Of a stretch of 64,000 nt of DNA, positions 22,619 through 36,495 are shown in pieces. The position numbers and the translations under genes were made by a program. Within the stretch, counting starts at the first letter, position 1. Every line of letters begins with the position of its first letter. The DNA lies in contig NZ_FRBI01000014.1 of NCBI RefSeq assembly GCF_900142575.1, positions 124,001 to 188,000 on the forward strand. Reading direction: 5' to 3'. The stretch is from Actinacidiphila paucisporea. GTDB taxonomy: Bacteria > Actinomycetota > Actinomycetes > Streptomycetales > Streptomycetaceae. The notes beneath the pieces are model-generated. The model ran no database searches and was not told where the DNA came from. It saw only the letters and a program-made list of their open reading frames with translations.

Positions 22619-22737
22619 GGGTATACCTGCCTCACCGGCTGCGGGGCGGCGCCACGGCCGCCGGGGGCGGGCGGCGAGGGCGCGAGAAGTCCGTGAGACG
22701 GTCGGGGGACGCCGTCGCGCGCCGGGAACGGCGCTGC

Positions 22738-22765
22738 TAGCGTGAGAAGCGGTCAGGAAGCGGCC
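22738..22765 (+). promoter_or_regulatory. TAGCGT -10 with GGTCAGGAAGCGGCC element
   Basis: A TAGCGT hexamer at 22738-22743 is followed 13 bases from its first base by the 15-mer at 22751-22765. The same 15-mer at the same spacing from a TA-rich hexamer recurs at 33323 (+) and 28821 (-), each before a STAS gene. If the hexamer is the -10, the 15-mer begins near +1. Confidence 0.6.
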
Positions 22766-22801
22766 GATTCCCCCTGTGAACGTGCAGAACGGACCGCCGC
22801 C

Positions 22802-23128: not shown

Positions 23129-23175
23129 GGGGCACCCGGTAACAGGTCCCTGACACCGCGCGGAAGGAACCGGCC

Positions 23176-23512
23176 ATGCGGCTGAGTTCCAGCGACCCCA
23201 CACGGCCCGGGCTGACCCGCCGCCGTCACGGCAAGGGCTTCCGCTGTCTGGACACGGCGGGCCACCCCCGGCGGTCGGCCCGCCACCCGCCGCCGGGGGG
23301 TCGGCCGCGCCGTCCGCGAGGTGGCGCACTACCTCGGCAACACCCCGGCGGTCTGCCGGGCCTCCTACGTCAACCCCAGGGTCGTGGAGCTGTTCGAGCA
23401 GGGTGTCACCGTCAGCGCCTCGCTGGACGCCCTCGGCGAGGACGCCGGCTTCGGGGAGCCCGCGACCCAGGGGGCGGTCGAGGAGGCAGTGCTCCGCATG
23501 CTGACCGCCTGA
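23176..23512 (+). pseudogene. DNA topoisomerase IB remnant with large internal deletion
   Basis: The first 30 codons (MRLSSSDPTRPGLTRRRHGK, then GFRCLDTAG) match the start of bacterial topoisomerase IB. A different frame, open from about 23300, gives VGRAVREVAHYLGNTPAVCR and then ASYVNPRVVELFEQGVTV, the extreme C-terminus of the same family, including the conserved Tyr of RASY. Roughly 250 residues that should lie between are missing, and the two pieces are out of frame. The catalytic core is gone, so the gene is dead. Confidence 0.75.
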
Positions 23513-23533
23513 CCCGGTGCGGATGTACGGCAT

Positions 23534-23560
23534 CGCCGCCGGCTTTCTCAGCCGGCGGCG
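23534..23560. terminator. Bidirectional hairpin terminator
   Basis: CGCCGCCGGCT (23534-23544) pairs with AGCCGGCGGCG (23550-23560) across a TTCTC loop. It lies between the topoisomerase remnant and the convergent sigma gene and overlaps the sigma stop codon. Confidence 0.7.
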
Positions 23561-24366
23561 TGTTCCTCCAGGGCCACCGCCCGCAGCTGCGCGCAGACGT
23601 TGTTGAGCAGGCGCGACACGTGCATCTGGGAGATCCCGAGGACCGCGGCGATCTCGGCCTGCTTCATGTCGTTGAAGAACCGCAGGAACAGGATGGTCCG
23701 CTCCCGCAGCGGGAGGGCGCGCAGGGTCGGCTTGACCGCCTCCCGGTCCACCACGCGGTCGAAGGCGGGGTCCAGCACGCCTATCCGGTGGCCGAGGAAG
23801 GCGTCCGCGCTGTCGGCCTCCAGCGCCGCGTCGAGCGAGAGCGCCGCGTAGCTGTCCAGTGCGGCGAGACCGGCCCTCACCTCGTCCACGGACAGCCCGG
23901 TGCGCGCGACCACGTCGGCGACCGACGGCCTGGACGCGGCATGGCCGCCGTCCAGTTCCTGGCACGCGGTGCGGACCCGGTTGCGCAGTTCCTGCACGCT
24001 GCGCGGCACGTGCACGCTCCACAGGTGGTCGCGGAAGTGCCGCTTGATCTCCCCGTCGATGGTGGGGACCGCGTACGAGGCGAAAGCGTGCCCGCGCGTG
24101 GGGTCGAACCGGTCGACAGCTTTGATCAGGCCCACCGCGGCGACCTGCTGGAGGTCCTCCAGCGTCTCCCCGCGGCTGCGGTAGCGCCCGGCGAGCCGCC
24201 TGGCCATCGGCATCCACACGATGATCAGGCGCTCCCTGCAGGCGTCCCGCTCGCTCTTGCGCCGGGCCGCCAGCATCCGCTGGAAGAGCTCGTCGGACTC
24301 GGCCGGCACGTCATGCTGCCGCTCCCCCGGTCGCACCGGGACCTGGCGTCCTTCGTCGTCGCGCAT
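23548..24366 (-). CDS. SigB/SigF-type RNA polymerase sigma factor
   Basis: The 272-residue group 3 sigma factor belongs to the stress/sporulation SigB-SigF-SigG set. Region 2 includes RYRSRGETLEDLQQVAAVGL and KAVDRFDPTRGHAFASYAVP. Region 3 carries HVPRSVQELRNRVR, and region 4 ends AEIAAVLGISQMHVSRLLNN. In streptomycetes such factors are held by RsbW-like kinases, and candidates for that network are in this window. ATG at 24366 is preferred, although a TTG further upstream is open. A GTGCTTCGGAC-N3-AGGCAC element lies 102-121 bases upstream. Confidence 0.9.
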   Translation of the reverse strand: MRDDEGRQVPVRPGERQHDVPAESDELFQRMLAARRKSERDACRERLIIVWMPMARRLAGRYRSRGETLEDLQQVAAVGLIKAVDRFDPTRGHAFASYAVPTIDGEIKRHFRDHLWSVHVPRSVQELRNRVRTACQELDGGHAASRPSVADVVARTGLSVDEVRAGLAALDSYAALSLDAALEADSADAFLGHRIGVLDPAFDRVVDREAVKPTLRALPLRERTILFLRFFNDMKQAEIAAVLGISQMHVSRLLNNVCAQLRAVALEEHAAG

Positions 24367-24467
24367 GAGGGCTCTTTCACGTGCGGGCTCGTGCAGCGCA
24401 GCGGCCCGGACGCCGGCGGCCGGGGCGGACCGCGGGGAACGGGGCGAGCCGTTCCACGCTGCGGTGC

Positions 24468-24487
24468 GTGCCTCCGGTCCGAAGCAC
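24468..24487 (-). promoter_or_regulatory. GTGCTTCGGAC-N3-AGGCAC element, copy 1
   Basis: On the minus strand the 20 bases read GTGCTTCGGACCGGAGGCAC, a near-palindrome with GTGC and GCAC ends. Copies with the same fixed 17 bases occur before the ssgA-like gene and the second sigma gene. This one precedes the sigma gene ending at 23548. Confidence 0.6.
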
Positions 24488-24655
24488 GCATCACATTTGT
24501 CCGGAATGCCCTCCCGCAAACCCAGCTCGCGGGCCCTTTCACGCGGTCGGCGCAGCGACTCGCCACGGGTGGCGGCGGCCGGCGCGCAGGCGTGGCGGCG
24601 GTGTGCGACGACGAGCCGGCCTGCGGTCGTCCCCGCAGTCCCGCCCGCAGTCGGT

Positions 24656-25207
24656 TCAGCCCTCGGCCTGCTGCTGGGTGAGGCTCCAGGCGTACTGCAG
24701 CCAGTCGGCGACCGTCACCGCGCTCAGGGCGGCCGCCACCAGCCGGGTGGCACGGGGAGCGGCGACGTATCCGCAGAAGAGGGCGCCGCCCACCCAGGCC
24801 GACATGCAGAACGGGCAGGCCAGCAGCTCGCCCGTGGCCAATCGCAGCCCGTGCCCGCGCGGCTCGTCCATCACCTCGCTCGCGCTGGTGGCTTCCTTGC
24901 GCCGGGTGAAGGGCGCCCGCACGAAGCTGGTGATCTTGTCCTTGGTCAGCAGGCGCGCGCCCTTGTGTGTCGCCGTCGCGAGAAGCAGCAGGTCCCCCGG
25001 CGGGAGGGCGGACGGCAGGCGCCGTCCGGAAGCGCGTGCCAGCACGGCGAATCCGCCGACGCCCGCGGCATAGACCGCGGCGAGCGTGGCGTAGCCGCCC
25101 AGCGGCAGGCCCTGACCAGGGGCGTAGCCCGCTGTCGGGCCGGTCGCCGCGGCGTCGGACGGGGCGGCGCCGGTGCCGGACTCCGGCCGGTTGTCGTCGG
25201 GCGCCAT
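24656..25207 (-). CDS. DUF1360 membrane protein
   Basis: The 183-residue protein matches DUF1360. It has DLLLLATATHKGARLLTKDK followed by ITSFVRAPFT, then GHGLRLATGELLACPFCMSAWVGG with the conserved C-x2-C, and a final hydrophobic segment. Two or three membrane segments are likely. The family occurs in Bacillus spore coats and widely in actinobacteria, with unknown biochemical function. It lies just downstream of a CBS-domain gene with a 35-bp gap, so they may be co-transcribed. Confidence 0.82.
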   Translation of the reverse strand: MAPDDNRPESGTGAAPSDAAATGPTAGYAPGQGLPLGGYATLAAVYAAGVGGFAVLARASGRRLPSALPPGDLLLLATATHKGARLLTKDKITSFVRAPFTRRKEATSASEVMDEPRGHGLRLATGELLACPFCMSAWVGGALFCGYVAAPRATRLVAAALSAVTVADWLQYAWSLTQQQAEG

Positions 25208-25242
25208 CGTCGCACCCTCCCTTCCTCGATGCCGGTTGGCCG

Positions 25243-25659
25243 TCAGTCGGTGGACAGCGCCTGGAGGAGGTCGCCCACCGGAGGGTCGGGCAGTGCGCGG
25301 GCGACGTCGGCTTGGGCGACCATGCCGACCAGGTCGTGGCCGTCGATGACGGGGAAGCGGCGCACCTTGTGCGCGGTCGTCGTGCGCAGGATCTCCTGCG
25401 CGTCGTCGTCGGCGCCGATGGTGACGGCCTCGCCCTGGGCGAGGTCTCCCGCCTTGGTGGTGGCGGGGTCCTTGCCCGCTCCGAGGACCTCGGTGACGAT
25501 GTCGCGGTCGGTGAGCATGCCGTTGAGCTTGTTGTCGGTGCCGCAGATGGGCAGCACTCCGACCTCGAACCGGGTCATCTTCTTCGCCGCAGTCAGGGTG
25601 TCTTCCTCCGCGCCGACGCATTCGGTGCCGGCGCTCATGATCTCTCGTGCGGTCGTCAT
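25243..25659 (-). CDS. Tandem CBS-domain protein
   Basis: The 138-residue protein is two CBS motifs in a row (residues about 5-65 and 70-135), forming one Bateman module that normally binds adenine nucleotides. It opens MTTAREIMSAGTECVGAEED, and each half has the TDRD or QAD turn after the beta strand (GMLTDRDIVTEV, GMVAQADVARAL). No other domain is attached. Related stand-alone CBS proteins are common in stress-regulated streptomycete clusters. It is divergent from the hemerythrin gene. Confidence 0.88.
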   Translation of the reverse strand: MTTAREIMSAGTECVGAEEDTLTAAKKMTRFEVGVLPICGTDNKLNGMLTDRDIVTEVLGAGKDPATTKAGDLAQGEAVTIGADDDAQEILRTTTAHKVRRFPVIDGHDLVGMVAQADVARALPDPPVGDLLQALSTD

Positions 25660-25959
25660 CGCGATGTGCCCTTCCGGTTCGCGTACGGTTCACCGCCCCG
25701 GGCCGTGGCGAGCGTGCAGGCGGCGCGCTCGTTTCGGGGCATGCTCTGCGGGTGCCACGCCCGGGCGGTCGGAAACACCCGCCCGCCCGGACGGCCGAGG
25801 ATTTCGGCCGCATGGGCCTGCTCGGACGGTCTGCTGCCGCCAAGGGCGTTTGTCCGGGCACGCAGGGGTACCCGGGTCGGCGAGAAGTGCGCGTCGGTAC
25901 CGCCGTATGGATGACGCGGGGCCGGTGCGCGGATCGCACCGAACCGAGGAGCCTGTCTG
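25660..25959. other. 300-bp divergent spacer
   Basis: No gene is recognisable. The spacer holds the SigB-type promoter at 25848-25871 reading toward the hemerythrin gene. Confidence 0.5.
25848..25871 (+). promoter_or_regulatory. SigB-type promoter GTTT-N14-GGGTAC
   Basis: GTTT (25848-25851), a 14-base spacer and GGGTAC (25866-25871) fit the published Streptomyces SigB consensus GNNT-N14-16-GGGTAC/T exactly. The hemerythrin ATG is 89 bases downstream of the -10. Confidence 0.7.
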
Positions 25960-26532
25960 ATGGGAACGGCCCAGGACGAACGCATGGCCGCGGCACAGCT
26001 GCCGCAAGGGGACATCGTGGCGCTGCTGCTCGAACAGCACGCCCGGATCAGGGACTTGTTCACGCAGGTCAAGAACAGCCAGGGCGAGGCGCGGCAGCAG
26101 GCGTTCGACGGTCTGCGCGCGCTGCTGGCCGTCCACGAGGCCGCCGAGGAGCTGGTGGTCCGCCCGGTGGCGAAGAAGACCGCGGGGGAAGGGGAGGCCG
26201 AGGCCCGCAACCACGAGGAGGCCGAAGCCACCAAGGTGCTCAAGCAGTTGGAGGGCATGGACCTGTCCAGCCCGGATTTCGAGCGCCTCATCGCCGAGTT
26301 CGAGCAGGCCGTCAGCGACCACGCGGACCACGAGGAGGCCGAGGAATTCCCGGCGCTGGTCGCCCAGTGCAGCCAGGAGCAGCGCCGCACGATGGGCGAG
26401 CGCCTGTCGAAGGTCGAACACCTCGCCCCGACCCATCCGCACCCCACCGCCGCGGGCAAGCCGGCAGCGCTCGCCCTGACCGGGCCGTTCGCCGCGATGA
26501 TGGACAAGGCGCGCGACGCCATGCGCTCCTGA
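25960..26532 (+). CDS. Hemerythrin HHE-domain protein
   Basis: The 190-residue four-helix protein has DIVALLLEQHARIRDLF, VHEAAEELVVRPV, ARNHEEAEATKVL and VSDHADHEEAEEFPAL. These supply the His/Glu set that binds a di-iron centre in HHE hemerythrins. Roles of the family include oxygen, nitric oxide or iron handling. The C-terminal tail is Ala/Pro-rich. ATG at 25960 follows GAGGAG. The upstream SigB-type promoter suggests stress control. Confidence 0.85.
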   Translation: MGTAQDERMAAAQLPQGDIVALLLEQHARIRDLFTQVKNSQGEARQQAFDGLRALLAVHEAAEELVVRPVAKKTAGEGEAEARNHEEAEATKVLKQLEGMDLSSPDFERLIAEFEQAVSDHADHEEAEEFPALVAQCSQEQRRTMGERLSKVEHLAPTHPHPTAAGKPAALALTGPFAAMMDKARDAMRS

Positions 26533-26584
26533 CCGCCGCCGGTGACGCCTGCGCGGACGGCTGCCCGGCAGGCGAGCCCGGACA

Positions 26585-26618
26585 CGGCGGGGCCGCCGCG
26601 CGTGCGGCGGCCCCGCCG
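26585..26618. terminator. 15-bp perfect GC hairpin
   Basis: Fifteen bases at 26585-26599 pair perfectly with 26604-26618 around a GCGT loop, 52 bases after the hemerythrin stop. There is no T-tract. It is a strong intrinsic terminator candidate. Confidence 0.75.
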
Positions 26619-26750
26619 GCCTGCCCGCCACCCCGGGACGTCCGCCCCACGGCCGAGCGGATGGGGCACCCGGGCTGATCGCTTTCGCACCCGTAGCGCC
26701 GGAAAGGCGCACCATGCCGGTGAACGACCCATACGACCAGGAGTACGGCG

Positions 26751-27242
26751 ATGACCGGGCTCGGGGACCAGAAGGCGTACGTCACCAACGCGGTCAAGCA
26801 CTTCAAGTTCGCTCCTGCCGAGCGCGGCAAGCGGCGCATCCACAAGCCGCCGAGCCTGCGCGAGACCGCGGCGTGCCGCCCCTGGCTCGCGGCCGAACTG
26901 CGGCTCGTCCGACCCGAGTTGGTGGTGGCACTGGGCGCCACCGCCGGCCGCGCGCTGCTGGGCCCGTCCTTCCGGGTGACCAGGGACCGGGGCACCGTAC
27001 TGCCGCCGCCCGCCGCGGAAGGCGGCGCGGGACCGGCGCCGGGCGGCATCGTGGCCACCGTCCACCCGTCCGCGGTCCTGCGGGCCACCGATCGCGAGGC
27101 GGCGTACGCCGGCCTGGTCGCGGATCTGAGGGTGGCCGCGGCCGCGCTCGAGGTCCAGGGCATGTGCAGCGGACCTTGCCGGGCCGGTCAGGGGACCCCG
27201 TACGCGGCGGCAGCCCTTGTTGCGCTCACGGACTGCCGGTAA
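26751..27242 (+). pseudogene. udgX: N-terminally truncated UdgX-type uracil-DNA glycosylase
   Basis: From codon 2 the frame matches the middle and end of family 4 UDG/UdgX: LGDQKAYVTNAVKHFKF, then GKRRIHKPPSLRETAACRPW and finally ATVHPSAVLR. The KRRIH loop is specific to UdgX, whose His forms a covalent bond to the abasic site. The first about 85 residues are missing, including the GEQPG catalytic motif and two of the cluster cysteines. The upstream 200 bp has no trace of them. The C-terminus runs about 25 residues past the usual end. The gene is probably inactive. Confidence 0.72.
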
Positions 27243-27245
27243 TCT
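27217..27245 (+). promoter_or_regulatory. Housekeeping-type promoter candidate for the anti-sigma gene
   Basis: TTGTTG (27217-27222), a 17-base spacer and TAATCT (27240-27245) lie 72 bases before the start at 27317. Confidence 0.4.
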
Positions 27246-27316
27246 GCCGTGAAAATGGCAGGTGAACGCGTGGAGCAGGAACCGCGCCCTGTCGTACTGG
27301 CTGAGATTGGCGCCAC

Positions 27317-27769
27317 GTGACCGAACGTCCTTTCCTCCACGCGCCGACTCCCGCCGGGCCGACCGTGCTGCTCCACTCGCGGGCCGCGTACGACCATCCG
27401 ACCGACAGCATCGCCGTCGCCCGCGGGCAGGCCCGCGACTTCCTGCGCGCGCTCGCGGGCACCGCCGTCATCCTCTCCGAGCAGGCGAAGGACGACGTGC
27501 TGCTCGTGGTCAGCGAGCTGGTCACCAACGCCGGACGCCACGCCGACGGCCCCGTCCTGCTCGACCTCGCCTGGACGGGCAGCGCGCTCGACGTGGCCGT
27601 CTGGGACACCGGCACGGCGATTCCCGTACGGATGCCTCGCGACCCGTCGCGCATCGGCGGCCACGGGCTGGAGATCGTCGCGGGCATCTGCTCCCGGCTG
27701 CACGCCGAACAGGTCGTCGGCGGTAAACGCGTCGTGGCCCGTATCGAACTCGCCTCCCGCCTGCGGTAG
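27317..27769 (+). CDS. RsbW-like anti-sigma / GHKL ATP-binding regulator
   Basis: The 150-residue protein is one HATPase_c domain of the streptomycete RsbW/SpoIIAB-like type. VVSELVTNAGRHADGPVLL is the N-box, VAVWDTGTAIPVRM the G1-like box and IGGHGLEIVAGIC the G2-like box. Such proteins bind a sigma factor or phosphorylate STAS antagonists. SigB-type sigma factors lie 3 kb upstream and 7 kb downstream, with STAS genes on either side. The GTG at 27317 is directly before the first conserved strand. Confidence 0.82.
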   Translation: MTERPFLHAPTPAGPTVLLHSRAAYDHPTDSIAVARGQARDFLRALAGTAVILSEQAKDDVLLVVSELVTNAGRHADGPVLLDLAWTGSALDVAVWDTGTAIPVRMPRDPSRIGGHGLEIVAGICSRLHAEQVVGGKRVVARIELASRLR

Positions 27770-27786
27770 TCAGCCACTCGGGTGGG

Positions 27787-28515
27787 TCAGGGTCGGGGGT
27801 GGAGTGGGGTGGCGGCGGGGGGTTGGCCGGTGGTGGTGGTGATGAGTTCGGCGCAGAGGTCGCGGAGTTTGGTGTTTCGGTGTTGTGAGGCGCTGCGGAG
27901 GATGGTGAAGGCGTGGTCGGGGGTGCAGCGTTGTTGGCCCATGATGATGCCGATGGCTTGGTCGATGGTGGTGCGTGATTGGAGTGCGGTGTGGAGGTCG
28001 TCGGTGAATTGGCGGGCGTCCGAGAGGCGTTGGGCCAGGGCGATGGCGCCGGTGGCTTGGGCTGCCAGTAGGTGGAGTGGTTGGTGGTCGGTGGTGTCGA
28101 AGGCGTGGGGGTGGGGGGCGTAGAGGTTGAGGGCGCCGGCGGTGTGGGTGTGGGGGGCGATGGGGAGGGAGAGTGAGGAGCGGGCGCCGTGGGTGGCGGC
28201 GTAGGCGGGGTAGGTGCCCCAGCGTTTTTCGTTGAGTGTGTCGGGGACGCTGATGGTGGTGCCGGTGCGCATGGCTTGGAGGCAGGGTCCGTCGTCCTGG
28301 CCGTATTGGGCTTCGTCGAGTTCGGTGGCAGTGGGTCCGGCGCTGGAGACGGTGACGGGGCGGCCTTGTCGTTCCAGGGTCACCCCGCATCCGGTGGCGT
28401 TCGGTGCCAGGTCCAGGGCGTGGTGGGCCAGGGCGCCCAGGAAGGCGTCCAGGGTGTCGGTATCCAGCAGTAGCGCGGTCACGTCCACCGCGGGCACAAA
28501 CGGCGTCTCTGTCAT
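27787..28515 (-). CDS. GAF and ANTAR domain regulator with atypical base composition
   Basis: The 242-residue protein is a close paralog of the regulator at 7707-8432. The GAF segment reads AQYGQDDGPCLQAMRTG and the ANTAR segment reads TIDQAIGIIMGQQRCT, then FTILRSASQHRNTKLRDLCAELI. The coding strand is very C+A rich and poor in G and T (codons such as ACA, CAA, CGA and runs of CAC/ACC), unlike every neighbour. This suggests separate ancestry or an unusual strand bias. ATG at 28515 is used. No strong ribosome site is seen. Confidence 0.86.
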   Translation of the reverse strand: MTETPFVPAVDVTALLLDTDTLDAFLGALAHHALDLAPNATGCGVTLERQGRPVTVSSAGPTATELDEAQYGQDDGPCLQAMRTGTTISVPDTLNEKRWGTYPAYAATHGARSSLSLPIAPHTHTAGALNLYAPHPHAFDTTDHQPLHLLAAQATGAIALAQRLSDARQFTDDLHTALQSRTTIDQAIGIIMGQQRCTPDHAFTILRSASQHRNTKLRDLCAELITTTTGQPPAATPLHPRP

Positions 28516-28602
28516 CGTCAACTCGTTCTGCACTAGGCACAAAGCCGGGCGGACGGAACCACAGACGGACGGCCGGAACCGGGCCGCCGTGGACCGCGCG
28601 GG

Positions 28603-28764
28603 TCACTGTCGGGAGAGGGCCTGAGCAGGCCGGGGACGGAAGGCCGGCGGCACGCAGGCACGGGCGCCGGGCGGCTGCACCTTCGACACCGTGTCCGGCG
28701 GCGGGACCGGGGGTTCGGTCAGCTCCGTGACCGGACAGGCGCCACCTGAGGTGCGCCGACTCAC
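28603..28764 (-). pseudogene. STAS-gene remnant keeping its full upstream leader
   Basis: A 53-codon frame from GTG at 28764 reads VSRRTSGGACPVTELTEPPV, then drifts into a Pro/Arg-rich tail. It aligns with the start of the intact STAS protein at 33380 (VSHSGSADACLVMELTEAVD). The 82 bases upstream also align without gaps with those before 33380, including the GGTCAGGAAGCGGCC element at exactly 57 bases. The STAS fold itself is absent, so this is a truncated duplicate, or a small ORF reusing the same control region. Confidence 0.55.
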
Positions 28765-28806
28765 AAACACCACGAAAACCCCACAGAAGATACGAAGAAT
28801 CCTGGG

Positions 28807-28834
28807 GGCCGCTTCCTGACCTCGCACACGATTA
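28807..28834 (-). promoter_or_regulatory. GGTCAGGAAGCGGCC element with TAATCG hexamer, copy 2
   Basis: The 15-mer occupies 28821-28807 on the minus strand. A TAATCG hexamer starts 13 bases before it, the same spacing as in the other two copies. It lies 57 bases before the GTG of the STAS remnant. Confidence 0.6.
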
Positions 28835-29003
28835 TGCCCTGTGCGCAGCGCCCGCGGGCATCGGGCAGGGGCCGGGAGCGAAGCGGTTTCGGCCGCCCCG
28901 ATCCGGTCAGACGACAGGACTACGACCTGACGAGACGAGCGACAAGCGGCGCGTCCGCGCCTGCCGAGCACGCAAGGACGCGTCAGAGGGAAGACGAGGA
29001 AAG

Positions 29004-29180
29004 ATGACCGAGAAGGGCCGAACGGCGGACTCTGCGGCAAAGCGACCTGCGGACCGCGCCCAGCGGACAGCTCACCGGCACACCGGCGAACCACGCGTGA
29101 GCCTGCCGGCGCGCGCCACGGGCGACGGCTGGCGCTACCCCGAAGGGGACGACTCCGCGATCGTCCGCGGTGAGGACTGA
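29004..29180 (+). CDS. Small hydrophilic protein, 58 residues
   Basis: ATG at 29004 is preceded by an excellent GAGGAAAG site. The 58-residue product is charged and rich in Arg, Ala, Asp and Thr (MTEKGRTADSAAKRPADRAQ at the start, WRYPEGDDSAIVRGED at the end), with no membrane segment or Cys pair. I do not recognise a family. The strong ribosome site and the 18-bp hairpin after the stop support a real gene. It is divergent from the STAS remnant. Confidence 0.5.
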   Translation: MTEKGRTADSAAKRPADRAQRTAHRHTGEPRVSLPARATGDGWRYPEGDDSAIVRGED

Positions 29181-29217
29181 CGTCCCACTCCGGCCCGAAC
29201 CGTCGTGCGTAAAGGAG

Positions 29218-29270
29218 CGGGCGCCGCGGAGCAGGTGACCGCCGCGTGCGGCCCTGCTCCGCGGCGCCCG
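29218..29270. terminator. 18-bp perfect hairpin, bidirectional
   Basis: Eighteen bases at 29218-29235 pair perfectly with 29253-29270 across a 17-base loop. It sits between the small gene ending at 29180 and the convergent dehydrogenase ending at 29289. Confidence 0.8.
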
Positions 29271-29288
29271 TTCCCGTACGCGGGGAGG

Positions 29289-30584
29289 TCAGCCCGTGGA
29301 CCGGGATCCGCCGGCGGTGGTGGCCGCGCCCGAGCCGGCGTGTTCGCCGGAGCCCGGCGGCATGCCGCCCTCGCCACCGAATTCCAGTGCCACCTTGGCC
29401 CATCCCGACTCGCGGCGGTCGAAGGAGGCGTACGCCTCGATCGCGTCGACGGGGTCGGGCCAGCGCGTCACCAGCGGCGTGGGGTCCAGCGCGCCGGTGG
29501 CGACGAGGGAGACCAGGTGCGGCAGGTAGGCGCGGTGGTTGCAGTTCCCGGTCTTCAGGGTGAGGTTCTTCATGAAGGCCTGACCGAAGGGGTAGGTCTC
29601 GACCTGCGGCGGATAGACGCCGACGGTGCCGATCGTGCCGGCTTTCGCCACCGCCTGGACGGCCCAGCGGGCCGCCTGCGACGGAGCATTCCCGGGCACC
29701 CAGGTGTCGCCGCGGGGCCGGCTCTCCGGGGCTGCCTGCCGGCTCTCGCGCCGGTCCTGGCCGGCGCGCTCGTCGGCCTGTTCCGCCGCGGGTCCGTGCG
29801 CGGGGCGCTGCGCGTCCACGCCGACCGCGTCGATCACCCGGTCGACGCCGCTACCGCCGGTGAGGTCCCTGATGGCCACCACCGGGTCCTCGGCGTTGAA
29901 GTCGACGACCTCCGCGTGCTGCCGGGCCGCCAGCTCCAGCCGGTCCTGCAGGCCGTCGACCAGGATGATCCGGGTCGCGCCCTGCAGGCGGGCGCACGCG
30001 ACGGCCGCCTGTCCGACCGGGCCCCCGCCGAAGATCGCGACGCTGTCGCCGGTGCCGACCTCCGCGAGCTTCGCCCCGAACCACGCGGTGGGATAGATGT
30101 CCGACAGGAGCACCGCCTGCGCGTCGTCCACCGAGTCCGGCAGCGGGACGAGCCCGACGTGCGCGTAGGGGACCCGGGCGTACTCCGCCTGGAGACCGTC
30201 CAGGCCGCCCGCCGCCTCGGGGCCGCCGAAGAAGACGGTCCCGGCCTGCGGGCCGCCGGGATTGGCCCGGTCGCACTGCGCGAAATACCCGGCGCGGCAG
30301 TACGAGCAACTGCCGCAGCCCACGGTGGAGGGCACCACCACGCGGTCGCCGGGCCGGAAGTTCCGCACGCCCGAGCCGACCTCCTCGACCACGCCCACGG
30401 CCTCGTGCCCGAGGATCCTCCCGGCAGCCATCCCCGGCATGGTGCCGCGGACGAAGTGCAGGTCCGTGCCGCAGATCGCGGAGGTGGTGATCCGTACGAT
30501 CGCGTCGGTGGCCTCCTGGACCTTCGGCTCCGGCACGTCGTCGAGGCGGATGTCCCCGATCCCATGCCACACAACAGCCTTCAC
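29289..30584 (-). CDS. Zinc-dependent alcohol dehydrogenase (MDR family)
   Basis: The 431-residue medium-chain dehydrogenase/reductase has the catalytic zinc Cys in AICGTDLHF, GHEAVGVVEEVG, and a four-Cys structural zinc lobe, CGSCSYCRAGYFAQC. The cofactor loop is VAIFGGGPVGQAAVACA. An Arg/Glu/Pro-rich insert at about residues 255-300, common to the formaldehyde-dehydrogenase-like subgroup, makes it longer than standard ADHs. GTG at 30584 is preferred because GAGGGAG is properly spaced before it. A second related enzyme is encoded at 44014-45204. Substrate unknown. Confidence 0.85.
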   Translation of the reverse strand: MKAVVWHGIGDIRLDDVPEPKVQEATDAIVRITTSAICGTDLHFVRGTMPGMAAGRILGHEAVGVVEEVGSGVRNFRPGDRVVVPSTVGCGSCSYCRAGYFAQCDRANPGGPQAGTVFFGGPEAAGGLDGLQAEYARVPYAHVGLVPLPDSVDDAQAVLLSDIYPTAWFGAKLAEVGTGDSVAIFGGGPVGQAAVACARLQGATRIILVDGLQDRLELAARQHAEVVDFNAEDPVVAIRDLTGGSGVDRVIDAVGVDAQRPAHGPAAEQADERAGQDRRESRQAAPESRPRGDTWVPGNAPSQAARWAVQAVAKAGTIGTVGVYPPQVETYPFGQAFMKNLTLKTGNCNHRAYLPHLVSLVATGALDPTPLVTRWPDPVDAIEAYASFDRRESGWAKVALEFGGEGGMPPGSGEHAGSGAATTAGGSRSTG

Positions 30585-30694
30585 GATGATCACTCCCTCG
30601 GTGCCGCGTGGGTGGCGCGGGCGCACCACCGCCCTGCGGGTTTCCATCCGGGCGGCCGCTAAACGGCGGCAGGCCCACGGGGTCCGGCAGGGAG

Positions 30695-30750
30695 CCGGGG
30701 TCCGGGGTCCGGGGTCCGGGGTCCGGGGTCCGGGGTCCGGGGTCCGGGGT
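30695..30750. repeat. 7-bp tandem repeat, eight perfect copies
   Basis: CCGGGGT is repeated eight times without error (56 bp) in the gap between the isochorismatase-like gene and the dehydrogenase start, followed by CCGACAG. Being perfect, it is probably prone to slippage and variable between strains. Confidence 0.95.
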
Positions 30751-30777
30751 CCGACAGGGAGTTTGCGCCGCCACCCC

Positions 30778-31356
30778 TCAGAAAGCGAGGTCGGCGGCCT
30801 TTTCGAGTCGCGCCCCCATGTTCTCCCGCATCATCCGCAGCGCCGCGTCCGCGAGGTCGGCGTGCAGGTGGGCCACCGCGTCCCGGACCACGGTGACGTC
30901 GATGTGCCGGATGTGCGCGTCGAGCGCCGAGTAGAGGATGCACTGCTCGGTGGCCTGCCCGCACAGGGCGATGTGCCCGATCCCGAGCTGCCGCAGCAGA
31001 TACTCCAGCGGGGTCTCGTAGAAGATCGAATGGCGGGCCTTGACGACGAAGAGGGAGTCGTCGTCCGGTGCGACCGGCTCGACGAGATCGGCGTGCGGGC
31101 CCTTGAGCACGGTGTCGAGCAGCTCGTCGTGGTGGGAGCGCCAGCGCCCGAAGTTGTCGTTGACGTAGATCACCTCGACGCCGCCCTCGCGCGCGGCGTC
31201 GATGGCGGTCCGCACCGCCGGCAGGACCTCGCGTACGGACGGGACGAGCAGGTCCGCGTCGGGATGCTGGTAATCGTTGAGCATGTCCACGACGATCAGG
31301 GCCCCGGGGGGCCGCTCGCCCGCGTCGCCACTGCCCGGCATGTCCTCAGAAACCAT
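30778..31356 (-). CDS. Isochorismatase-like cysteine hydrolase
   Basis: The 192-residue protein has the family Asp in ALIVVDMLNDYQ, the Lys in FVVKARHSIFYETPLEYLL, and the nucleophile in CGQATEQCILYSALDA. These form the Asp-Lys-Cys triad of amidases such as nicotinamidase and isochorismatase-like hydrolases. ATG at 31356 follows GAGGAG. The frame is continuous upstream into the VOC remnant with no stop between, so a longer read-through product is possible. Substrate unknown. Confidence 0.85.
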   Translation of the reverse strand: MVSEDMPGSGDAGERPPGALIVVDMLNDYQHPDADLLVPSVREVLPAVRTAIDAAREGGVEVIYVNDNFGRWRSHHDELLDTVLKGPHADLVEPVAPDDDSLFVVKARHSIFYETPLEYLLRQLGIGHIALCGQATEQCILYSALDAHIRHIDVTVVRDAVAHLHADLADAALRMMRENMGARLEKAADLAF

Positions 31357-31690
31357 CGGGCACTCCTCGCTCGTCCCCTGCGGCTGCCCACCGGTCTCGA
31401 TCAGGCAGAACTCGTTGCCCTCCGGATCGGCGAGAACGGCGGTCAGGCAGCCCTGGTCGTCGAAGGGCCCGCCAGACGGCGGGCACCGAGCCCCAGCATG
31501 CGGCCGAGCTCGTCCTCCAGCGCGCTCACGCGCAGATCCAGGTGCATGCGGTTCTTGCCCTCCTTGCGCTCGGGCACCTTCTGCAGCAGCAGCTCCGGCT
31601 GCGCCCCCGCGGGGTGGCCCAGCGTGACATACGGCGGATCGCGCCGCACGACGGCGTAACCGATCGCCCGGAACGGTTCCTCCCTCGCGG
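31357..31690 (-). pseudogene. VOC/glyoxalase-family remnant, frameshifted
   Basis: One frame (about 31690-31445) reads YAVVRRDPPYVTLGHPAGAQ and then KNRMHLDLRVSALEDELGRM, typical of actinobacterial VOC proteins. It ends LAGPSTTRAA and stops. Shifting one base at the GGCGGGCCC run restores GPFDDQGCLTAVLADPEGNE and FCLIETG, the normal C-terminus. The first half of the gene is missing. The restored frame runs straight into the isochorismatase start. Confidence 0.65.
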
Positions 31691-31756
31691 GCCGCCTGGG
31701 CGCCCGGCCGCGCTCCCCCAGGTGTCGGGCGCCCCCGCACGGGGAACGGCGAGGCG

Positions 31757-32899
31757 GTGGAACCGATCGTGCACGCGCTGTCCATCACCGGCTCGATGGC
31801 CTGGGAGATCACCTGGGCCCTCATCCTCGGTTTCGTCCTGTCCGCCGTCGTCCAGGCCGTGGTCCGCCGGTCCACGGTCGTACGCCTGCTGGGTGACGAC
31901 CGGCCGCGTACGCTGGCGACCGCCTCGGCGCTCGGGGTCGCGTCCTCGTCGTGCTCCTACGCCGCTGTGGCACTGGCCCGCTCGCTGTTCCGCAAGGGGG
32001 CGGACTTCACCGCGGCGATGGCCTTCGAGATCGCCTCGACCAACCTGGTGGTCGAGCTGGGCGTGATCCTGGCGCTGCTGATGGGGTGGCAGTTCACGGC
32101 CGCGGAGTTCGTGGGCGGGCCGGTCATGATCGTGCTGCTCGCGGTGCTCTTCCGCCTGCTCCTGCGGGACACGCTGCTGCGCGAGGCCAGGGAGCAGGCC
32201 GGCCGGGGCCTGTCCGGGTCCATGGAGGGCCACGCGGCGATGGACATGTCCGTAGCCGGGAGCGGCTCCTTCGTGCGGCGGCTCGCCTCCGGCGAGGGAT
32301 TCACCGCGGTCGCCGCGGTCTTCGTCATGGAGTGGGCGGCGATCCTCCGCGACCTCGTCATCGGGCTGCTCATCGCCGGCGCCATCGCCGCATGGGTCCC
32401 CGACTCCTTCTGGCGGCACTTCTTCTTCGCGGGCCATCCGTTCGCCTCGAAGGTGTGGGGCCCGCTGGTCGGGCCGCTGGTGGCGATGCTGTCCTTCGTG
32501 TGCTCGATCGGGAACGTGCCGTTGGCGGTCGTCCTGTGGAAGGGCGGCATCAGCTTCGGCGGAGTCATCGCCTTCCTCTTCGCCGACCTGCTGATCCTGC
32601 CCATCCTGAACATCTACCGGAAGTATTACGGCGTTCGGATGACGCTCTTCCTGCTCGGTACCTTCTACGCGGCCATGGTCGTCGCCGGATACGTCGTCGA
32701 GTCGCTCTTCGGCGGCCTCGGCCTGATCCCCGACCAGGCCGACGCCGAGATCCCCACGCAGGGGGTGACGTGGGATTACACCACCTGGCTCAACATCGCC
32801 TTCCTCCTGCTGGCCGCGGCCCTCCTGGCGCGCTTCCTGCGCACCGGCGGGGCCGGCATGCTCCGCGCGATGGGCGGCGCACCGGACGGCGCGGCCTAG
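31757..32899 (+). CDS. Permease of the COG0701/ArsP-like family
   Basis: The 380-residue integral membrane protein has about eight to ten hydrophobic segments in two halves. The pseudo-repeated motifs of the family are clear: LGVASSSCSYAAVALARSLF in the first half and FVCSIGNVPLAVVLWKGG in the second, each with a Cys in a membrane loop. STNLVVELGVIL lies between. Relatives export trivalent organoarsenicals or have unknown cargo. A hydrophilic loop lies at about 130-165. No ars genes are adjacent, so arsenic is not assured. Confidence 0.8.
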   Translation: MEPIVHALSITGSMAWEITWALILGFVLSAVVQAVVRRSTVVRLLGDDRPRTLATASALGVASSSCSYAAVALARSLFRKGADFTAAMAFEIASTNLVVELGVILALLMGWQFTAAEFVGGPVMIVLLAVLFRLLLRDTLLREAREQAGRGLSGSMEGHAAMDMSVAGSGSFVRRLASGEGFTAVAAVFVMEWAAILRDLVIGLLIAGAIAAWVPDSFWRHFFFAGHPFASKVWGPLVGPLVAMLSFVCSIGNVPLAVVLWKGGISFGGVIAFLFADLLILPILNIYRKYYGVRMTLFLLGTFYAAMVVAGYVVESLFGGLGLIPDQADAEIPTQGVTWDYTTWLNIAFLLLAAALLARFLRTGGAGMLRAMGGAPDGAA

Positions 32900-33240
32900 A
32901 GCGGGCCCGCGAAGCGGCCGACGAGGTCCGCGCAGACGTCGTGGAGGCTTGGTCCTCCGCGCGCGGCCCTCCGACCGGCGAAGGCCCCTCCCGGCTCATC
33001 CGGCGCGCTGCCGGGGGTGACCGCGGCCGGGGACGAGACCAGGGGCAGGTCGTCCGCGGGAAACCTGCCGGCCTCGGTGGCCAGGAGCGTGAGCACGCCG
33101 ACCGGCGCCCGCCCCGCGGTCACGGGAAGGAAGGCGTAGGCGCCCCGGACGCCCAGGCCGGTGGCGAGCGCGGCGAAGTGCGGCCACCGGTCGGCGTGCG
33201 GAACCCACGGGCAGGCCGGGTCCCGCCACGTGCGCCGAGA
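32896..33240 (-). pseudogene. GAF/ANTAR regulator remnant with internal deletion
   Basis: The frame contains WPHFAALATGLGVRGAYAFL and PVTAGRAPVGVLTLLATEAG, the second half of a GAF domain. The ANTAR helices are missing. The final SLHDVCADLVGRFAGPL matches the last residues of the intact GAF/ANTAR regulators (RDLCAELISRFGEP). So the ends of the C-terminal part were kept while the middle was deleted. No start with a ribosome site is seen. Confidence 0.55.
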
Positions 33241-33309
33241 CCGTGCAAGTGCCCCTCCGCGCCGCGGGTCGTCACCGTCCCGCGCCCCGCCCGCACCGCG
33301 CACGGGGCA

Positions 33310-33337
33310 TACTGATGTTCGAGGTCAGGAAGCGGCC
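33310..33337 (+). promoter_or_regulatory. GGTCAGGAAGCGGCC element with TACTGA hexamer, copy 3
   Basis: TACTGA starts at 33310 and the 15-mer occupies 33323-33337, the same spacing as the copies at 22751 and 28821. The STAS GTG at 33380 is 57 bases from the 15-mer start. Confidence 0.6.
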
Positions 33338-33379
33338 CGCTGGGCCGATCCTGTCTTTGGTGGTGTTTACGTGTCGTTT

Positions 33380-33811
33380 GTGAGTCATTCCGGCAGTGCT
33401 GACGCCTGTCTGGTCATGGAATTGACCGAAGCCGTCGATCCCGAGACCGAAGACCGCGTCGAACGCGACCTGGTCCGGCGGCTGCGCGCCCGCGACGTGG
33501 AAGTCGTGGTCATCGACGTCCGTACGCCCCTGGTGACCACCACCGCGCTCCACCTGCTGATGCGCCTGAGGGAAAGCGCGCTCGCGCAGGGCGCCGCGCT
33601 CTGCGTCGTGGCGCGCCATCCGCTGGCGCGGCGCGTCTTCCGGGCCGCCGGTCTGAGCCGGGCGCTGCGGGTCAGCGCGACGATGGGCGGCACGCAGGCC
33701 GTGGCCCGTGGCTGTCCGCGACCGGACGATCGACCGGACGCTTCCCGCGGTGCCGCACGGCGGGCGCGAACGCGACCGTCCCGCCACCCCGGCCGGCACA
33801 GCCCCCGCTGA
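33380..33811 (+). CDS. STAS-domain protein with basic C-terminal tail
   Basis: The protein has about 143 residues. Residues 1-105 are a STAS domain: LVMELTEAVDPETEDRVERD, VEVVVIDVRTPLVTTTALHL, and RRVFRAAGLSRALRVSA. The loop that carries DSSG in phosphorylated antagonists is TPLVTTTAL. The last 35 residues are Arg/Pro-rich. GTG at 33380 is favoured because the remnant at 28764 aligns there; GTG 33371 and ATG 33417 are alternatives. It is related to the STAS protein at 22802. Confidence 0.72.
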   Translation: MSHSGSADACLVMELTEAVDPETEDRVERDLVRRLRARDVEVVVIDVRTPLVTTTALHLLMRLRESALAQGAALCVVARHPLARRVFRAAGLSRALRVSATMGGTQAVARGCPRPDDRPDASRGAARRARTRPSRHPGRHSPR

Positions 33812-33884
33812 CCGTCGCCCGGCCCTGACCCACCCGACCCGTGTGTTTCCCGCTCTCATATCGGGGCAGGCACGCGGCAGTTTG

Positions 33885-33904
33885 GTGCTTCGGACGGCAG
33901 GCAC
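33885..33904 (+). promoter_or_regulatory. GTGCTTCGGAC-N3-AGGCAC element, copy 2
   Basis: The 20 bases read GTGCTTCGGACGGCAGGCAC. The following 13 bases extend into a small GGCACC...GGTGCC hairpin (33900-33917). It lies 84 bases upstream of the ssgA-like start. Confidence 0.6.
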
Positions 33905-33968
33905 CCCCTCCGGTGCCGTGCGCTGAACCACTGGCGCTGCACCCCGACACAGACGAGGCGGTACGGCA

Positions 33969-34391
33969 GTGCCCATCGACAACCGTCCGGTGCGAACAGC
34001 CACCACCGGTTACCTGATGCTGTCCGAGGAGCACCTCGTGCCGGTGGCCGCCGAGCTGGTTTACCGGCCCCGGGACCCGCTGGCGGTGAGCATGGTGCTG
34101 TGCGGGCCCGACGGCGTCGAGGCCGCCTGGACCTTCGCCTGGCAGATCCTGGCCCAGGGCCTGGTCGCCCCGGCCGGCGAAGGAGACCTCAGAGTCCGGC
34201 CGGTCCCGGCGCGGGGAACCACGCCGGCCGTGGAGCTGCGCATGACGTCGTCGTTCACCGCGCGGGTGCTCCTGCCCGCCAGGGAGATCGGCTACTTCGT
34301 CGGCAAGATCCGCGGCAGGGCCCACGTCGACGCCTCGCACATCCGGCGATCACTCGACGCGGAGCTGTCGGCCATCAGGGAGGCCATCTGA
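33969..34391 (+). CDS. SsgA-like sporulation/cell-division regulator (SALP)
   Basis: The 140-residue single-domain protein belongs to the actinomycete-specific SsgA-like family, which directs septum placement and peptidoglycan remodelling in sporulating species. Hallmarks are DPLAVSMVLCGPDGVEAAWTF, then ILAQGLVAP, then VLLPAREIGYFVGKI. The family length matches. It is strong taxonomic evidence for a streptomycete. It shares a 20-bp upstream element with the two sigma genes. Confidence 0.9.
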   Translation: MPIDNRPVRTATTGYLMLSEEHLVPVAAELVYRPRDPLAVSMVLCGPDGVEAAWTFAWQILAQGLVAPAGEGDLRVRPVPARGTTPAVELRMTSSFTARVLLPAREIGYFVGKIRGRAHVDASHIRRSLDAELSAIREAI

Positions 34392-34721
34392 ACCGGCGGC
34401 TCCGGCCGGGCCCGCGGGCCGGGCCGGGACGGCTGACGTTTGCCGGGGGCCGGGCCGGAAAGGCGAATGGTGTGCTTCGGACCAGAGGCACTCCCGCGGT
34501 AGCCCGGCGCAGGCATGCGCGAGCGCCGTACGGCACCGGCAGGTAGAGAGCCGGTGCCTGACGGCACAGGGTGGCTATGAAGCGGATCCCCGGCAGTCTC
34601 CGTGCGAGCGGCGTCGACCGCCCGGATCGGCGGTTCGCGGGGGAGCACGGGCGCCTCTGGTCCGTCCTCTCCTGCCGGGCCGCGCCCGGGCGGCGACGCG
34701 GCGGCCGCAGAGAGGAACCAC
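34392..34721. other. 330-bp leader region of the sigma gene
   Basis: No gene is recognisable. It contains the GTGCTTCGGAC-N3-AGGCAC copy at 34472-34491 and a 9-bp hairpin, GGCACCGGC (34532-34540) with GCCGGTGCC (34550-34558), which would lie in a long 5' leader. Confidence 0.5.
34472..34491 (+). promoter_or_regulatory. GTGCTTCGGAC-N3-AGGCAC element, copy 3
   Basis: The 20 bases read GTGCTTCGGACCAGAGGCAC. The sigma start is 250 bases from its first base, further than in the other copies. Confidence 0.6.
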
Positions 34722-35636
34722 ATGACTCAGTACGCCTGGTCCCACAAGGCCGCGTCCGAGCCGGCAGCGCCGGCCGACGTGTCACCGCCCGGCATTGGAG
34801 CACACCGGTCGCACGCTCTGGGGCTGCCCCTGATAACCGACGCGGGAAGGGTGGCGGCCAAGGACGCGAGGGAGCTGTCGTATGCCTTCTTCCACCGGCT
34901 GCGGACGCTGGAGGAGGGCACCGCCGCGTACCAGTACGTGCGCAACACGCTCATCGAGATGAACCTGTCGCTGGTGCGGTTCGCCGTGCGCCGCTTCCGC
35001 CACCGCGGTGCGGAGGAGGCCGACGACATCTTCCAGAGCGGTGTGGTCGGTCTGATCAAGTCCATCGACCGCTTCGACCTGTCACGGGAGGTGGAGTTCC
35101 CCACCTTCGCACTGCCGACCATCCGCGGCGAGATCATGCGGCACCTGCGCGACACCACGTGGGCGGTGCATGTGCCGCGCCGCCTCCAGGAGCAGCGGCT
35201 GGAGCTGGCGAAGGCCAAGGAGCAACTGGAGGCGCGGTTGGCGCGCAGGCCCACGCTGGCTGAGCTGGCAGAGGAGATGGGCCTCGAAGAAGCCGAGGTC
35301 GCCGACACCATGGCTGCCGCGAACGGCTACACCGCCGCGTCCCTGGACGCGCCCGCCGAGGAGCCGGGCACCGACGACGGGGGCGGGGCCGAACTCTTCA
35401 GCCGGGTGACCGGCGCGGAGGACCCCGCGCTGGAACTGTTCGAGAACTGCCACTCCCTGGCACCGCTGCTGGCCCGCCTCGACGAGCGGGAGCAGCGGGT
35501 GCTGAGGATGCGTTTCGGCGAGGAGTGCACGCAGCGGGAGATCGGCGACGCACTCGGCTACTCCCAGATGCACATCTCCCGCCTGCTGACCGGGATCTAC
35601 ACGAAACTGCGCGCCGGACTGCTCGTCGAGGCGTGA
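34722..35636 (+). CDS. SigB/SigF-type RNA polymerase sigma factor
   Basis: The 304-residue group 3 sigma factor has region 2 in RRFRHRGAEEADDIFQSGVV, KSIDRFDLSREVEFPTFALP and TWAVHVPRRLQEQ. Region 4 ends REIGDALGYSQMHISRLLTG. It is a paralog of the factor at 23548-24366 but has a longer N-terminus of about 60 residues and an acidic spacer (EEPGTDDGGG) between regions 3 and 4. ATG at 34722 follows AGAGGAACC. It precedes a gene with a SigB-type promoter, which it might recognise. Confidence 0.9.
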   Translation: MTQYAWSHKAASEPAAPADVSPPGIGAHRSHALGLPLITDAGRVAAKDARELSYAFFHRLRTLEEGTAAYQYVRNTLIEMNLSLVRFAVRRFRHRGAEEADDIFQSGVVGLIKSIDRFDLSREVEFPTFALPTIRGEIMRHLRDTTWAVHVPRRLQEQRLELAKAKEQLEARLARRPTLAELAEEMGLEEAEVADTMAAANGYTAASLDAPAEEPGTDDGGGAELFSRVTGAEDPALELFENCHSLAPLLARLDEREQRVLRMRFGEECTQREIGDALGYSQMHISRLLTGIYTKLRAGLLVEA

Positions 35637-35651
35637 GGGCTCCCGGCCGCG

Positions 35652-35676
35652 GTGTGGCCCGGGGGAACCCGGGTAT
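35652..35676 (+). promoter_or_regulatory. SigB-type promoter GTGT-N15-GGGTAT
   Basis: GTGT at 35652-35655 and GGGTAT at 35671-35676 are separated by 15 bases, within the SigB consensus. The start of the GAF/ANTAR gene is 46 bases after the -10. Confidence 0.6.
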
Positions 35677-35721
35677 CCGGTGACAGGCGCGTCAGGCAGT
35701 GGCCGAGGAGGGGTGGACCCG

Positions 35722-36417
35722 ATGCACGACCGACTGCACCTCGCACGGGTGATCCGCCGGGCCACGGCGGACTGCCCGCCCGTGGAGGTGCCCCGGCGGC
35801 TGTGCGAGGCGCTGTCCCGCGGGCTGCCGGTGGACGCCGTGACGATGTCCCTGCTCACCGACACCCCGTCACGCCAGTTGCTGTGTGCGTCGAACGAGAT
35901 GGCCAGGGTGCTCGAAGAGGTGCAGTTCACCGTGATGGAGGGGCCGTGCATCGAGGCCGCCTCGACGGGAGAGCCCGTCCACGCGACCGATCTGCCGGCG
36001 GCGGCCGGACGCTGGCCGCTGTTCGTGGCCGCCCTGCACGAGCGGTGTCCGGACGTCGCGGCCGTCCACGCCTTCCCGCTGTGGTTCGGCGACTACGTCC
36101 TCGGCTCGGTGGATTTCGCCTGCCGCGCCCCGGGAGGCATGCCGGCGGACGCCGTCGAGCAGGCCGCCGAGGCCGCGGAAGCCGCGGCGCTGGCGCTGCT
36201 TCCCACGCAGCGGATGCTGCTGGAGGACGACGACTACCCCAGCTGGGAGCCGTCGGACGTCGTCCGCGCCCACTGGTCGGACACGCACCAGGCCGTCAGC
36301 GTCGTGGCCGCCAGGAAGCGGACCAGCGTGGCCACGGCGTTGGCCCTGATGCGTGCCCGCGCCTTCGCGACCGGCCGGACGCTGGCCGAGGTCACCGCGG
36401 ACATCCTCGGCTCCTGA
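35722..36417 (+). CDS. GAF and ANTAR-like regulator
   Basis: The 231-residue protein has a GAF domain (about 10-160, with EVQFTVMEGPCIEAASTGEP and AVHAFPLWFGDYVLGSVDF) and a C-terminal ANTAR-like helix set (TSVATALALMRARAFATGRT, LAEVTADILG). It belongs to a different GAF/ANTAR subgroup from the 7707 and 27787 paralogs. ATG at 35722 has GAGGAGG upstream. Position right behind a sigma gene with its own SigB-type promoter suggests stress control. Confidence 0.82.
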   Translation: MHDRLHLARVIRRATADCPPVEVPRRLCEALSRGLPVDAVTMSLLTDTPSRQLLCASNEMARVLEEVQFTVMEGPCIEAASTGEPVHATDLPAAAGRWPLFVAALHERCPDVAAVHAFPLWFGDYVLGSVDFACRAPGGMPADAVEQAAEAAEAAALALLPTQRMLLEDDDYPSWEPSDVVRAHWSDTHQAVSVVAARKRTSVATALALMRARAFATGRTLAEVTADILGS

Positions 36418-36495
36418 GCGCCGGTCGGCGCACGGCGGCACGTCGTCGCCCACCGGACGGCGCCCGGGGGCTTCGCGGCCGCCGGACCGCTTCTC

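Follow-up and report, generated by a model that had tools for sequence, protein, structure and literature searches.

A conserved 20-nucleotide element behind SigB-type promoters of Streptomycetaceae, probably an RNA hairpin at the front of stress sigma factor leaders

Streptomyces species harbor many SigB-like sigma factors with overlapping promoters, nine homologues being counted in Streptomyces coelicolor (PMC8346170), and how each of them can be switched on separately is a standing question. A 64,000-nucleotide (nt) stretch of the Actinacidiphila paucisporea genome (contig NZ_FRBI01000014.1, positions 124,001 to 188,000; hereafter, the window) carries three copies of a 20-nt element, GTGCTTCGGAC-N3-AGGCAC, ahead of two sigma genes and one SsgA-like gene, which a preliminary description had taken to be more likely a transcription-factor site, while naming a structured leader as the alternative. 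The analysis presented here favors, with somewhat more confidence than doubt, the second possibility: the element would be an RNA hairpin (P1) at the 5' end of transcripts made from SigB-type promoters, forming the front of a structured leader that possibly controls the translation of stress sigma factors. If true, this conserved leader would add a post-transcriptional gate to a subset of SigB-like sigma genes, one answer to the question of their separate control, and P1 points to further target genes.

The element and its SigB-type promoter

A scan of the window recovers exact copies at 24487-24468 (-) (copy 1, GTGCTTCGGACCGGAGGCAC), 33885-33904 (+) (copy 2, GTGCTTCGGACGGCAGGCAC) and 34472-34491 (+) (copy 3, GTGCTTCGGACCAGAGGCAC), precisely where they had been located before, and no further copy of GTGCTTCGGAC-N3-AGGCAC at up to 3 mismatches. 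Dinucleotide shuffles yield a mean of 0.37 matches at this tolerance, and none of 100 shuffles reaches three. In the whole 8.16-Mb genome, no match apart from the three window copies has fewer than 2 mismatches; a further 12 differ at 2 or 3 positions, and since the element read backwards as a control gives 14 matches against a total of 15, these weaker ones are background. The 17 bases described as fixed are so in the three window copies but not across species, where the C at position 11 varies and the shared core is GTGCTTCGGA-N4-AGGCAC.

Each window copy, and nearly every copy elsewhere, lies directly behind a GTTT-N15-GGGNA sequence, a SigB-type promoter that is absent from the preliminary description. 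It resembles the SigB-type promoters of S. coelicolor, for which the consensus GTTTAA-N12-14-GGGWAW has been given, in the GTTT of the -35, the GGGNAN of the -10, a similar spacing and its use by sigma factors of stress and development; the promoter SCO1541p (ssgB) is among those mapped there (PMC8346170). P1 differs from these in being an extra element downstream of the promoter, found here only in a subset of genes, and the printed S. coelicolor promoter sequences end near the start site, so that P1 could not show in them (PMC8346170). In the window, the promoter of copy 1 (24497..24521, -) has its -35, GTTTGC, at 24521-24516 and its -10, GGACAA, at 24502-24497; that of copy 2 (33845..33869, +) has GTTTCC at 33845-33850 and GGGCAG at 33864-33869, with 15 nt from the -10 to P1; and that of copy 3 (34438..34462, +) has GTTTGC at 34438-34443 and GGAAAG at 34457-34462. 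The spacer is 13 nt in all three, and the assignments for copies 1 and 3 come from sequence and alignment.

This linkage holds for the sites from the order-wide scans, which are those among the matches listed: 156 distinct sites were collected with the 20-mer alone, and 265 with a model that includes the promoter. Within 50 nt upstream of the former, GTTT...GG is present in 143. For the latter, six sites without promoter and gene were left out of the spacing count, and a scored -35/-10 pair was found in 251 of the remaining 259, with a spacer of 13 or 14 nt in 243 of the 251 and a gap of 9-12 nt between -10 and P1 in 241, the overall variation of this gap being 9-17 nt. Table 2 of PMC8346170 lists 24 mapped SigB-type promoters of S. 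coelicolor, and taking the final base shown for each as the start site puts 8-10 nt between -10 and start in 19 of them. Taken together, these two distances would place the first base of P1 at about +1 to +6 of the mRNA, and, by the same promoter analogy, P1 transcripts would depend on a SigB-family sigma.

P1: RNA hairpin or DNA operator

The element folds as GUGCUUC[GGANNN]GAGGCAC. Copy 1 forms a 7-bp hairpin with a hexaloop at -9.8 kcal/mol (z-score -3.48), with pair probabilities of 0.99-1.0 in its 131-nt leader, and copy 3 reaches -9.7 kcal/mol (z-score -3.35), with P1 pair probabilities of 0.94-0.98 in a 263-nt leader. Pairing across species was counted in 54 distinct sequences collected by a model without structure, leaving out the six promoter-less or gene-less sites, the site L389 and two sites with a one-base insertion. 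Paired cells make up 93.7%, compared with 90.5% in shuffles and 35-63% in slid controls; the covariation score is 0.172 against 0.123, and cells with a double change number 12 against 3.6, none of 500 shuffles being as high in any of these three measures. As the relatedness of the leaders can inflate both the score and the percentage, this evidence of pairing is good, but not final. Pairs 1-4 vary mostly through G-U wobbles. Pair 2-19 is UA, UG or CG, with a double change from UA to CG in 3 sequences, and pair 7-14 is CG, GC or UA, with a double change in 9. A U-G pair is kept in 53 of the 54 sequences, the GG of the loop is conserved, and two sites (L334 and L370) have a one-base insertion in the loop.

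Several results speak against a 5'-terminal hairpin. The start sites of P1 transcripts are deduced from promoter analogy, and copy 2, the weakest of the three, has a C-C mismatch at pair 7-14, folds at only -5.7 kcal/mol (z-score -1.25) and shows P1 pair probabilities of 0.0 in its 97-nt leader. Pair 7-14 is unpaired in 17 of the 54 sequences as well. Two counts do not rise above shuffles, that of pairs showing any double change (268 of 500 shuffles as high) and that of distinct pair types (338 of 500), and these two pair-counting measures are, according to the tool, those least inflated by relatedness. RNAalifold finds no covariation on alignment A1, whose rows are nearly all motif-matched by choice, and the conservation of the stem sequence exceeds what a bare hairpin needs.

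This very high conservation, the GTGC and GCAC ends and the two of five pairing measures that stay at shuffle level could also be produced by a DNA operator, to which a dimeric transcription factor would bind as a near-palindrome just past the -10, repressing or modulating SigB-type transcription. Binding around the start site is typical of repression, and the position of P1 would suit it. The operator is nevertheless thought unlikely. The halves of the near-palindrome, GTGCTT and GTGCCT, are unequal in a largely constant manner, and the element is not at a set distance from the -10, the gap ranging over the 9-17 nt given above. Pair 7-14 changes its identity yet stays complementary (CG, GC, UA), most changes are of the wobble type, and in two sites the middle is one base longer; neither the swaps of pair identity nor the loop insertion is explained by a rigid dimer operator. 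The element is most likely an RNA hairpin at the 5' end of the transcript and not an operator for a dimer. The position behind the -10, the compensatory and wobble changes, the swaps at pair 7-14 and the loop insertions all fit a structured leader, and the earlier preference for a transcription-factor site is not upheld by them.

One particular operator was compared directly. The OsdR/DevR box is likewise a near-palindrome before Streptomyces stress genes (PMC5069765), and its consensus as given there, AGGGCCGATCGGCCCT, matches the three window copies at 8-9 of 16 positions, which is the random level, since random stretches of the window average 8.2; this candidate was rejected.

Known RNA families were searched with Rfam 15 (4227 models, E-value up to 1) in sets of 10 and 9 loci and in positions 22000-37000 of the window, and no match was found at the element; six weak matches all lie away from it. 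One of the matches in the window, to ASdes (23920-23987, -), stays under its threshold (27.5 bits against a gathering score of 40), falls inside a sigma gene and is probably due to chance. No description of P1 was noticed in a search of the open literature, in which GTGCTTCGG co-occurs with 'Streptomyces' in 2 papers, and an earlier description elsewhere is possible.

Distribution and carrier genes

Within the genus of the organism, 8 of 35 genomes, its own included, have a match with at most 1 mismatch. The seven other genomes hold eight sites, seven before sigma genes, one of which (L018) has a fragmented sigma reading frame, and one before an ssg gene. Across the order, such matches occur in 254 of 391 genomes, compared with 27 of 391 for the backwards control (hand count), and a sequence-only model of promoter plus element gives matches in 250 of the 391. 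The same model, applied to the class, finds 17 of 246 genomes, every one in the same family. Both order-wide tallies extend over 3 of 10 genera, the third being represented each time by one weak match: in the 20-mer scan, a site without promoter (genome G059, site L143), and in the model scan, a site before unrelated open reading frames (ORFs; genome G036, site L389, E-value 3.7e-4). In these scans, convincing copies are present in two genera of one family, Streptomycetaceae.

The genes that follow are for the most part those first described. Of the 156 sites collected with the 20-mer, 143 are followed by a sigma ORF within 1.5 kb, 1 by an ssg ORF and 12 by neither; a site counts here as sigma if a sigma ORF is the best match within this distance, so that window copy 2, which has the ssg gene first and a sigma gene farther downstream, is counted as sigma. 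The scan of related genomes suggested in the preliminary description, with random or coding placement and lack of conservation before orthologs as the outcome that would speak against the element, thus places the matches before SigB-type sigma genes and, rarely, before SsgA-like genes, and that outcome did not occur.

Matches outside this family lack the same context. Chance copies in unrelated bacteria have neither promoter nor sigma gene in 5 of 5 loci, and the 9 viral contigs with an exact match, several of them near-identical, are all without the promoter, on which ground a phage origin was rejected. Not every SigB-type gene region carries the element either: among the upstream regions of sigma and ssg paralogs, 37 of 40 are without P1, and the 3 carriers are L254, which is the site already found as L020, L258 and L263. 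The idea that P1 is a core part of all such regions was rejected on this count.

A few other genes have the same upstream arrangement. P1 with its promoter stands before a conserved membrane protein in L340, L341, L363 and L365; the four proteins are orthologous and look FUSC-like by eye, a Pfam scan of that of L365 gave no match, and the P1 stems of L340 and L365 have the compensatory form GCGC...GCGC. P1 leaders also precede small DUF5133 genes in L179 and L384 (Pfam match) and in L383 (by eye), and a catalase gene follows the DUF5133 gene in L384. In L317, the P1 leader is followed by a short remnant that resembles sigma region 3 by eye and then by a Ppx/GppA ORF (Pfam match), L349 being alike by eye; this arrangement is perhaps a decayed sigma gene whose leader has been retained. 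In Streptomyces longwoodensis (L079:6752-6793), P1 is duplicated in tandem, the second copy with one change.

The downstream leader, its possible partners and the surrounding locus

In many Streptomyces leaders, the sequence CCGYGGGAG is found behind P1, and its complement CUCCCRCGG after it, mostly ending 50-80 nt behind P1; the two would form a long stem, P2. The best helix score is at least 22 in 53% of the 265 leaders, compared with 9% of shuffles. The 5' arm of P2 resembles a Shine-Dalgarno (SD) sequence, and its 3' arm can pair with the real one. For a comparison of own and foreign SD regions, 217 of 243 sigma leaders had an assignable start; leaving out those that lack a P2 helix reduced these to 172, which were thinned to 129, in which the P2 3' arm and its flank score a mean of 16.3 against the SD of their own leader and 14.7 against those of other leaders (0 of 2000 permutations as high), although the relatedness of leaders can inflate shuffle and permutation tests alike and is controlled here only in part. 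In a sliding window along the leader, the z-score at the P2 3' arm is 6.6, 4.4 and 2.6 as relatives are thinned from 129 to 54 and 19 leaders, and the remaining windows range from -1.7 to 1.7, apart from one that adjoins the arm and is considered below. When two mutually exclusive states are predicted in 113 leaders, their energies differ by a median of 1.1 kcal/mol (quartiles -2.2 and 4.9).

The proposed model is as follows. SigB-type RNA polymerase would start from GTTT-N15-GGGNA directly upstream, so that the 5' end of the transcript is the 20-nt P1. Leaders marked by this hairpin would belong to some of the SigB-family sigma genes and to a few others (SsgA-like, membrane protein, DUF5133), a set that probably constitutes an auto- or cross-regulated stress loop. 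In the many Streptomyces leaders in which P2 follows, its 3' arm would pair either with the SD mimic, leaving the SD free and translation on, or with the real SD, turning translation off; the direction of this switch is deduced from the predicted pairings. A leader with P2 is likely a translational switch in which the P2 5' arm serves as SD mimic. Recognition of the conserved P1 stem-loop by some factor would shift the balance between on and off, the existence and nature of this trans-acting reader being inferred. What the computations show is the linkage to the promoter, some covariation in the P1 hairpin, conservation within the family and a P2 3' arm that fits the SD of its own leader. Sigma-factor mRNAs whose SD can be masked by leader pairing are familiar from rpoS and rpoH of Escherichia coli. 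No homology to these is claimed, and the P1 leaders differ in having a conserved 5' hairpin and an SD mimic and in occurring in an actinobacterial family.

Other results count against such a switch. When P2 is located by a downstream anchor instead of by complementarity in 73 leaders (37 distinct), 276 of 333 cells are paired, with a shuffle mean of 272 and 258 of 2000 shuffles as high, and covariation of P2 is therefore unproven. A MAFFT/RNAalifold consensus of 143 whole leaders recovers a 5-bp P1 core and a single stray pair but no global fold of any use. SD-like motifs served as an aid in choosing the start codons (217 of 243 sigma leaders), and the window adjoining the P2 3' arm, which overlaps it, has z-scores of 3.9, 2.0 and 0.1 at 129, 54 and 19 leaders. 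Near-equal energies of two such states might be a frequent feature of GC-rich RNA, and exact retention of P1 is seen in just 56 of 113 leaders in the P2 state and 33 of 113 in the anti-SD state. The leaders of the window itself keep promoter and P1 without a canonical P2, and their energies are no better than those of shuffles, so that the switch model is best supported in Streptomyces and only plausible here. Copy 3 has a candidate anti-SD, UCCUCUC (34665..34671, +), the complement of the SD region GAGAGGA (34710..34716, +) that lies 5 nt ahead of the ATG at 34722 of its sigma gene; the two pair in the local minimum free energy structure, whose z-score of -0.44 is not below shuffles, and the evidence comes from a single sequence. 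A pseudoknot between the loop GGAC and a GUCC after P2 was also considered and rejected, because leaders with other loops (L046, L325) retain the downstream GUCC.

Another role for P1 would be to shield the 5' end of stress mRNAs from decay, the pairing of P2 with the SD being incidental. Terminal stem-loops at the 5' end slow mRNA decay in other bacteria, and the predicted start of P1 is a few bases at most from that of the transcript. Its strict conservation, with the GG of the loop and the U-G pair in 53 of 54 sequences, goes beyond what protection alone would need, and the P2 3' arm fits the SD of the leader it belongs to; mere stabilization is accordingly judged improbable. Far less credible still is that the AGGAGG in the 3' arm of P1 acts as the SD of a GUG-started leader peptide inside P2. 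The arrangement AGGAGGCACGUCC-GUG does occur in leaders such as L065, where the script chose that GUG as start, but the G at position 14, which makes GGAGG, is present in 88% and the T at position 26, which makes GUG, in 71%, and the window copies do not retain it. The peptide was rejected as not conserved.

It has also been considered whether ANTAR-domain proteins encoded nearby bind P1, together with P2, as a non-canonical site; these proteins would sense a signal and control the folding of the leader. ANTAR proteins bind RNA, and their genes are found near part of the P1 loci. Of 114 named loci, 35 have an ANTAR-type match in the vicinity of P1, 18 times at 1.0-1.2 kb on the opposite strand and 17 times at 2.2-2.8 kb on the same strand, and ten hand-picked neighbours all have an ANTAR domain above cut-off. 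In 29 sigma loci of the genus, the match is present in 1 of 3 with P1 (L203, L204, L214) and in 0 of 26 without it; the control loci cover less DNA than the named loci, and orthologous loci do not provide independent neighbours. On the other hand, in a second set of 85 P1 loci reaching about 1.5 kb behind the site, 5 of them shared with the named set, a match is found in 8, three of these on the upstream side, and not one of the ten neighbours scanned has a GAF match above cut-off.

The RNA itself is similar to ANTAR targets only in part. Those described are hexaloop hairpins in the leaders of regulator mRNAs, for which translation control is proposed, and they consist of two stem-loops with a 2-25-nt linker and conserved loop bases A1 and G4 (PMC8164766). 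The P1 loop is mostly a hexaloop too, but of the form GG(A/C)NNN, and A1 and G4 occur together in 1 of 257 P1 loops, that one (L389) being a doubtful match. P1 also differs in that its sequence hardly varies and that it goes with one class of promoter, and no second hexaloop hairpin was noticed in P1 leaders, although no search with an ANTAR covariance model was made. An ANTAR protein as partner of P1 is a lead suggested by gene neighbourhood, and P1 as a non-canonical ANTAR site appears a rather unlikely account of the element. A broader proposal is put forward tentatively and is itself judged doubtful: P1 would be an RNA address tag of a SigB-family stress circuit of Streptomycetaceae, read on the mRNAs of various unrelated genes with SigB-type promoters by an RNA-binding regulator, plausibly an ANTAR protein with a non-canonical loop, that sets the SD mimic/anti-SD switch and so gates translation of the stress sigma according to the signal sensed.

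The genes next to the window copies agree with the names and start-codon distances (121, 84 and 250 bases) first given to them. Copy 1 precedes a gene of the SigB/SigF/SigG family (23548..24366, -, ATG at 24366), which scores 254.8 bits with TIGR02980 (cut-off 234.35) and contains the Pfam sigma70 regions 2, 3 and 4. The gene behind copy 2 (33969..34391, +, GTG at 33969) has an SsgA domain (PF04686, 58.8 bits); its best NCBIfam match, SsgD, is under cut-off (57.9 bits against 185). Copy 3 precedes a second gene of the SigB/SigF/SigG family (34722..35636, +, ATG at 34722; TIGR02980, 251.0 bits, same cut-off). Directly after it lies a gene for a GAF protein (35680..36417, +; GAF_2, 36.2 bits) with a weak ANTAR match that stays under cut-off (19.3 bits against 27.3), a point against the ANTAR reading in the window; its product is a candidate RNA-binding partner.

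Positions 22742-36417 as a whole resemble a stress island around both sigma genes. The gene at 22742 is STAS-like by eye, a Pfam scan of it giving no match. Besides the GAF gene with the weak ANTAR match at 35680-36417, a GAF-ANTAR gene is present at 27787-28542, and the make-up of the island also includes STAS, HATPase, CBS, hemerythrin and DUF1360 and an ArsP permease.

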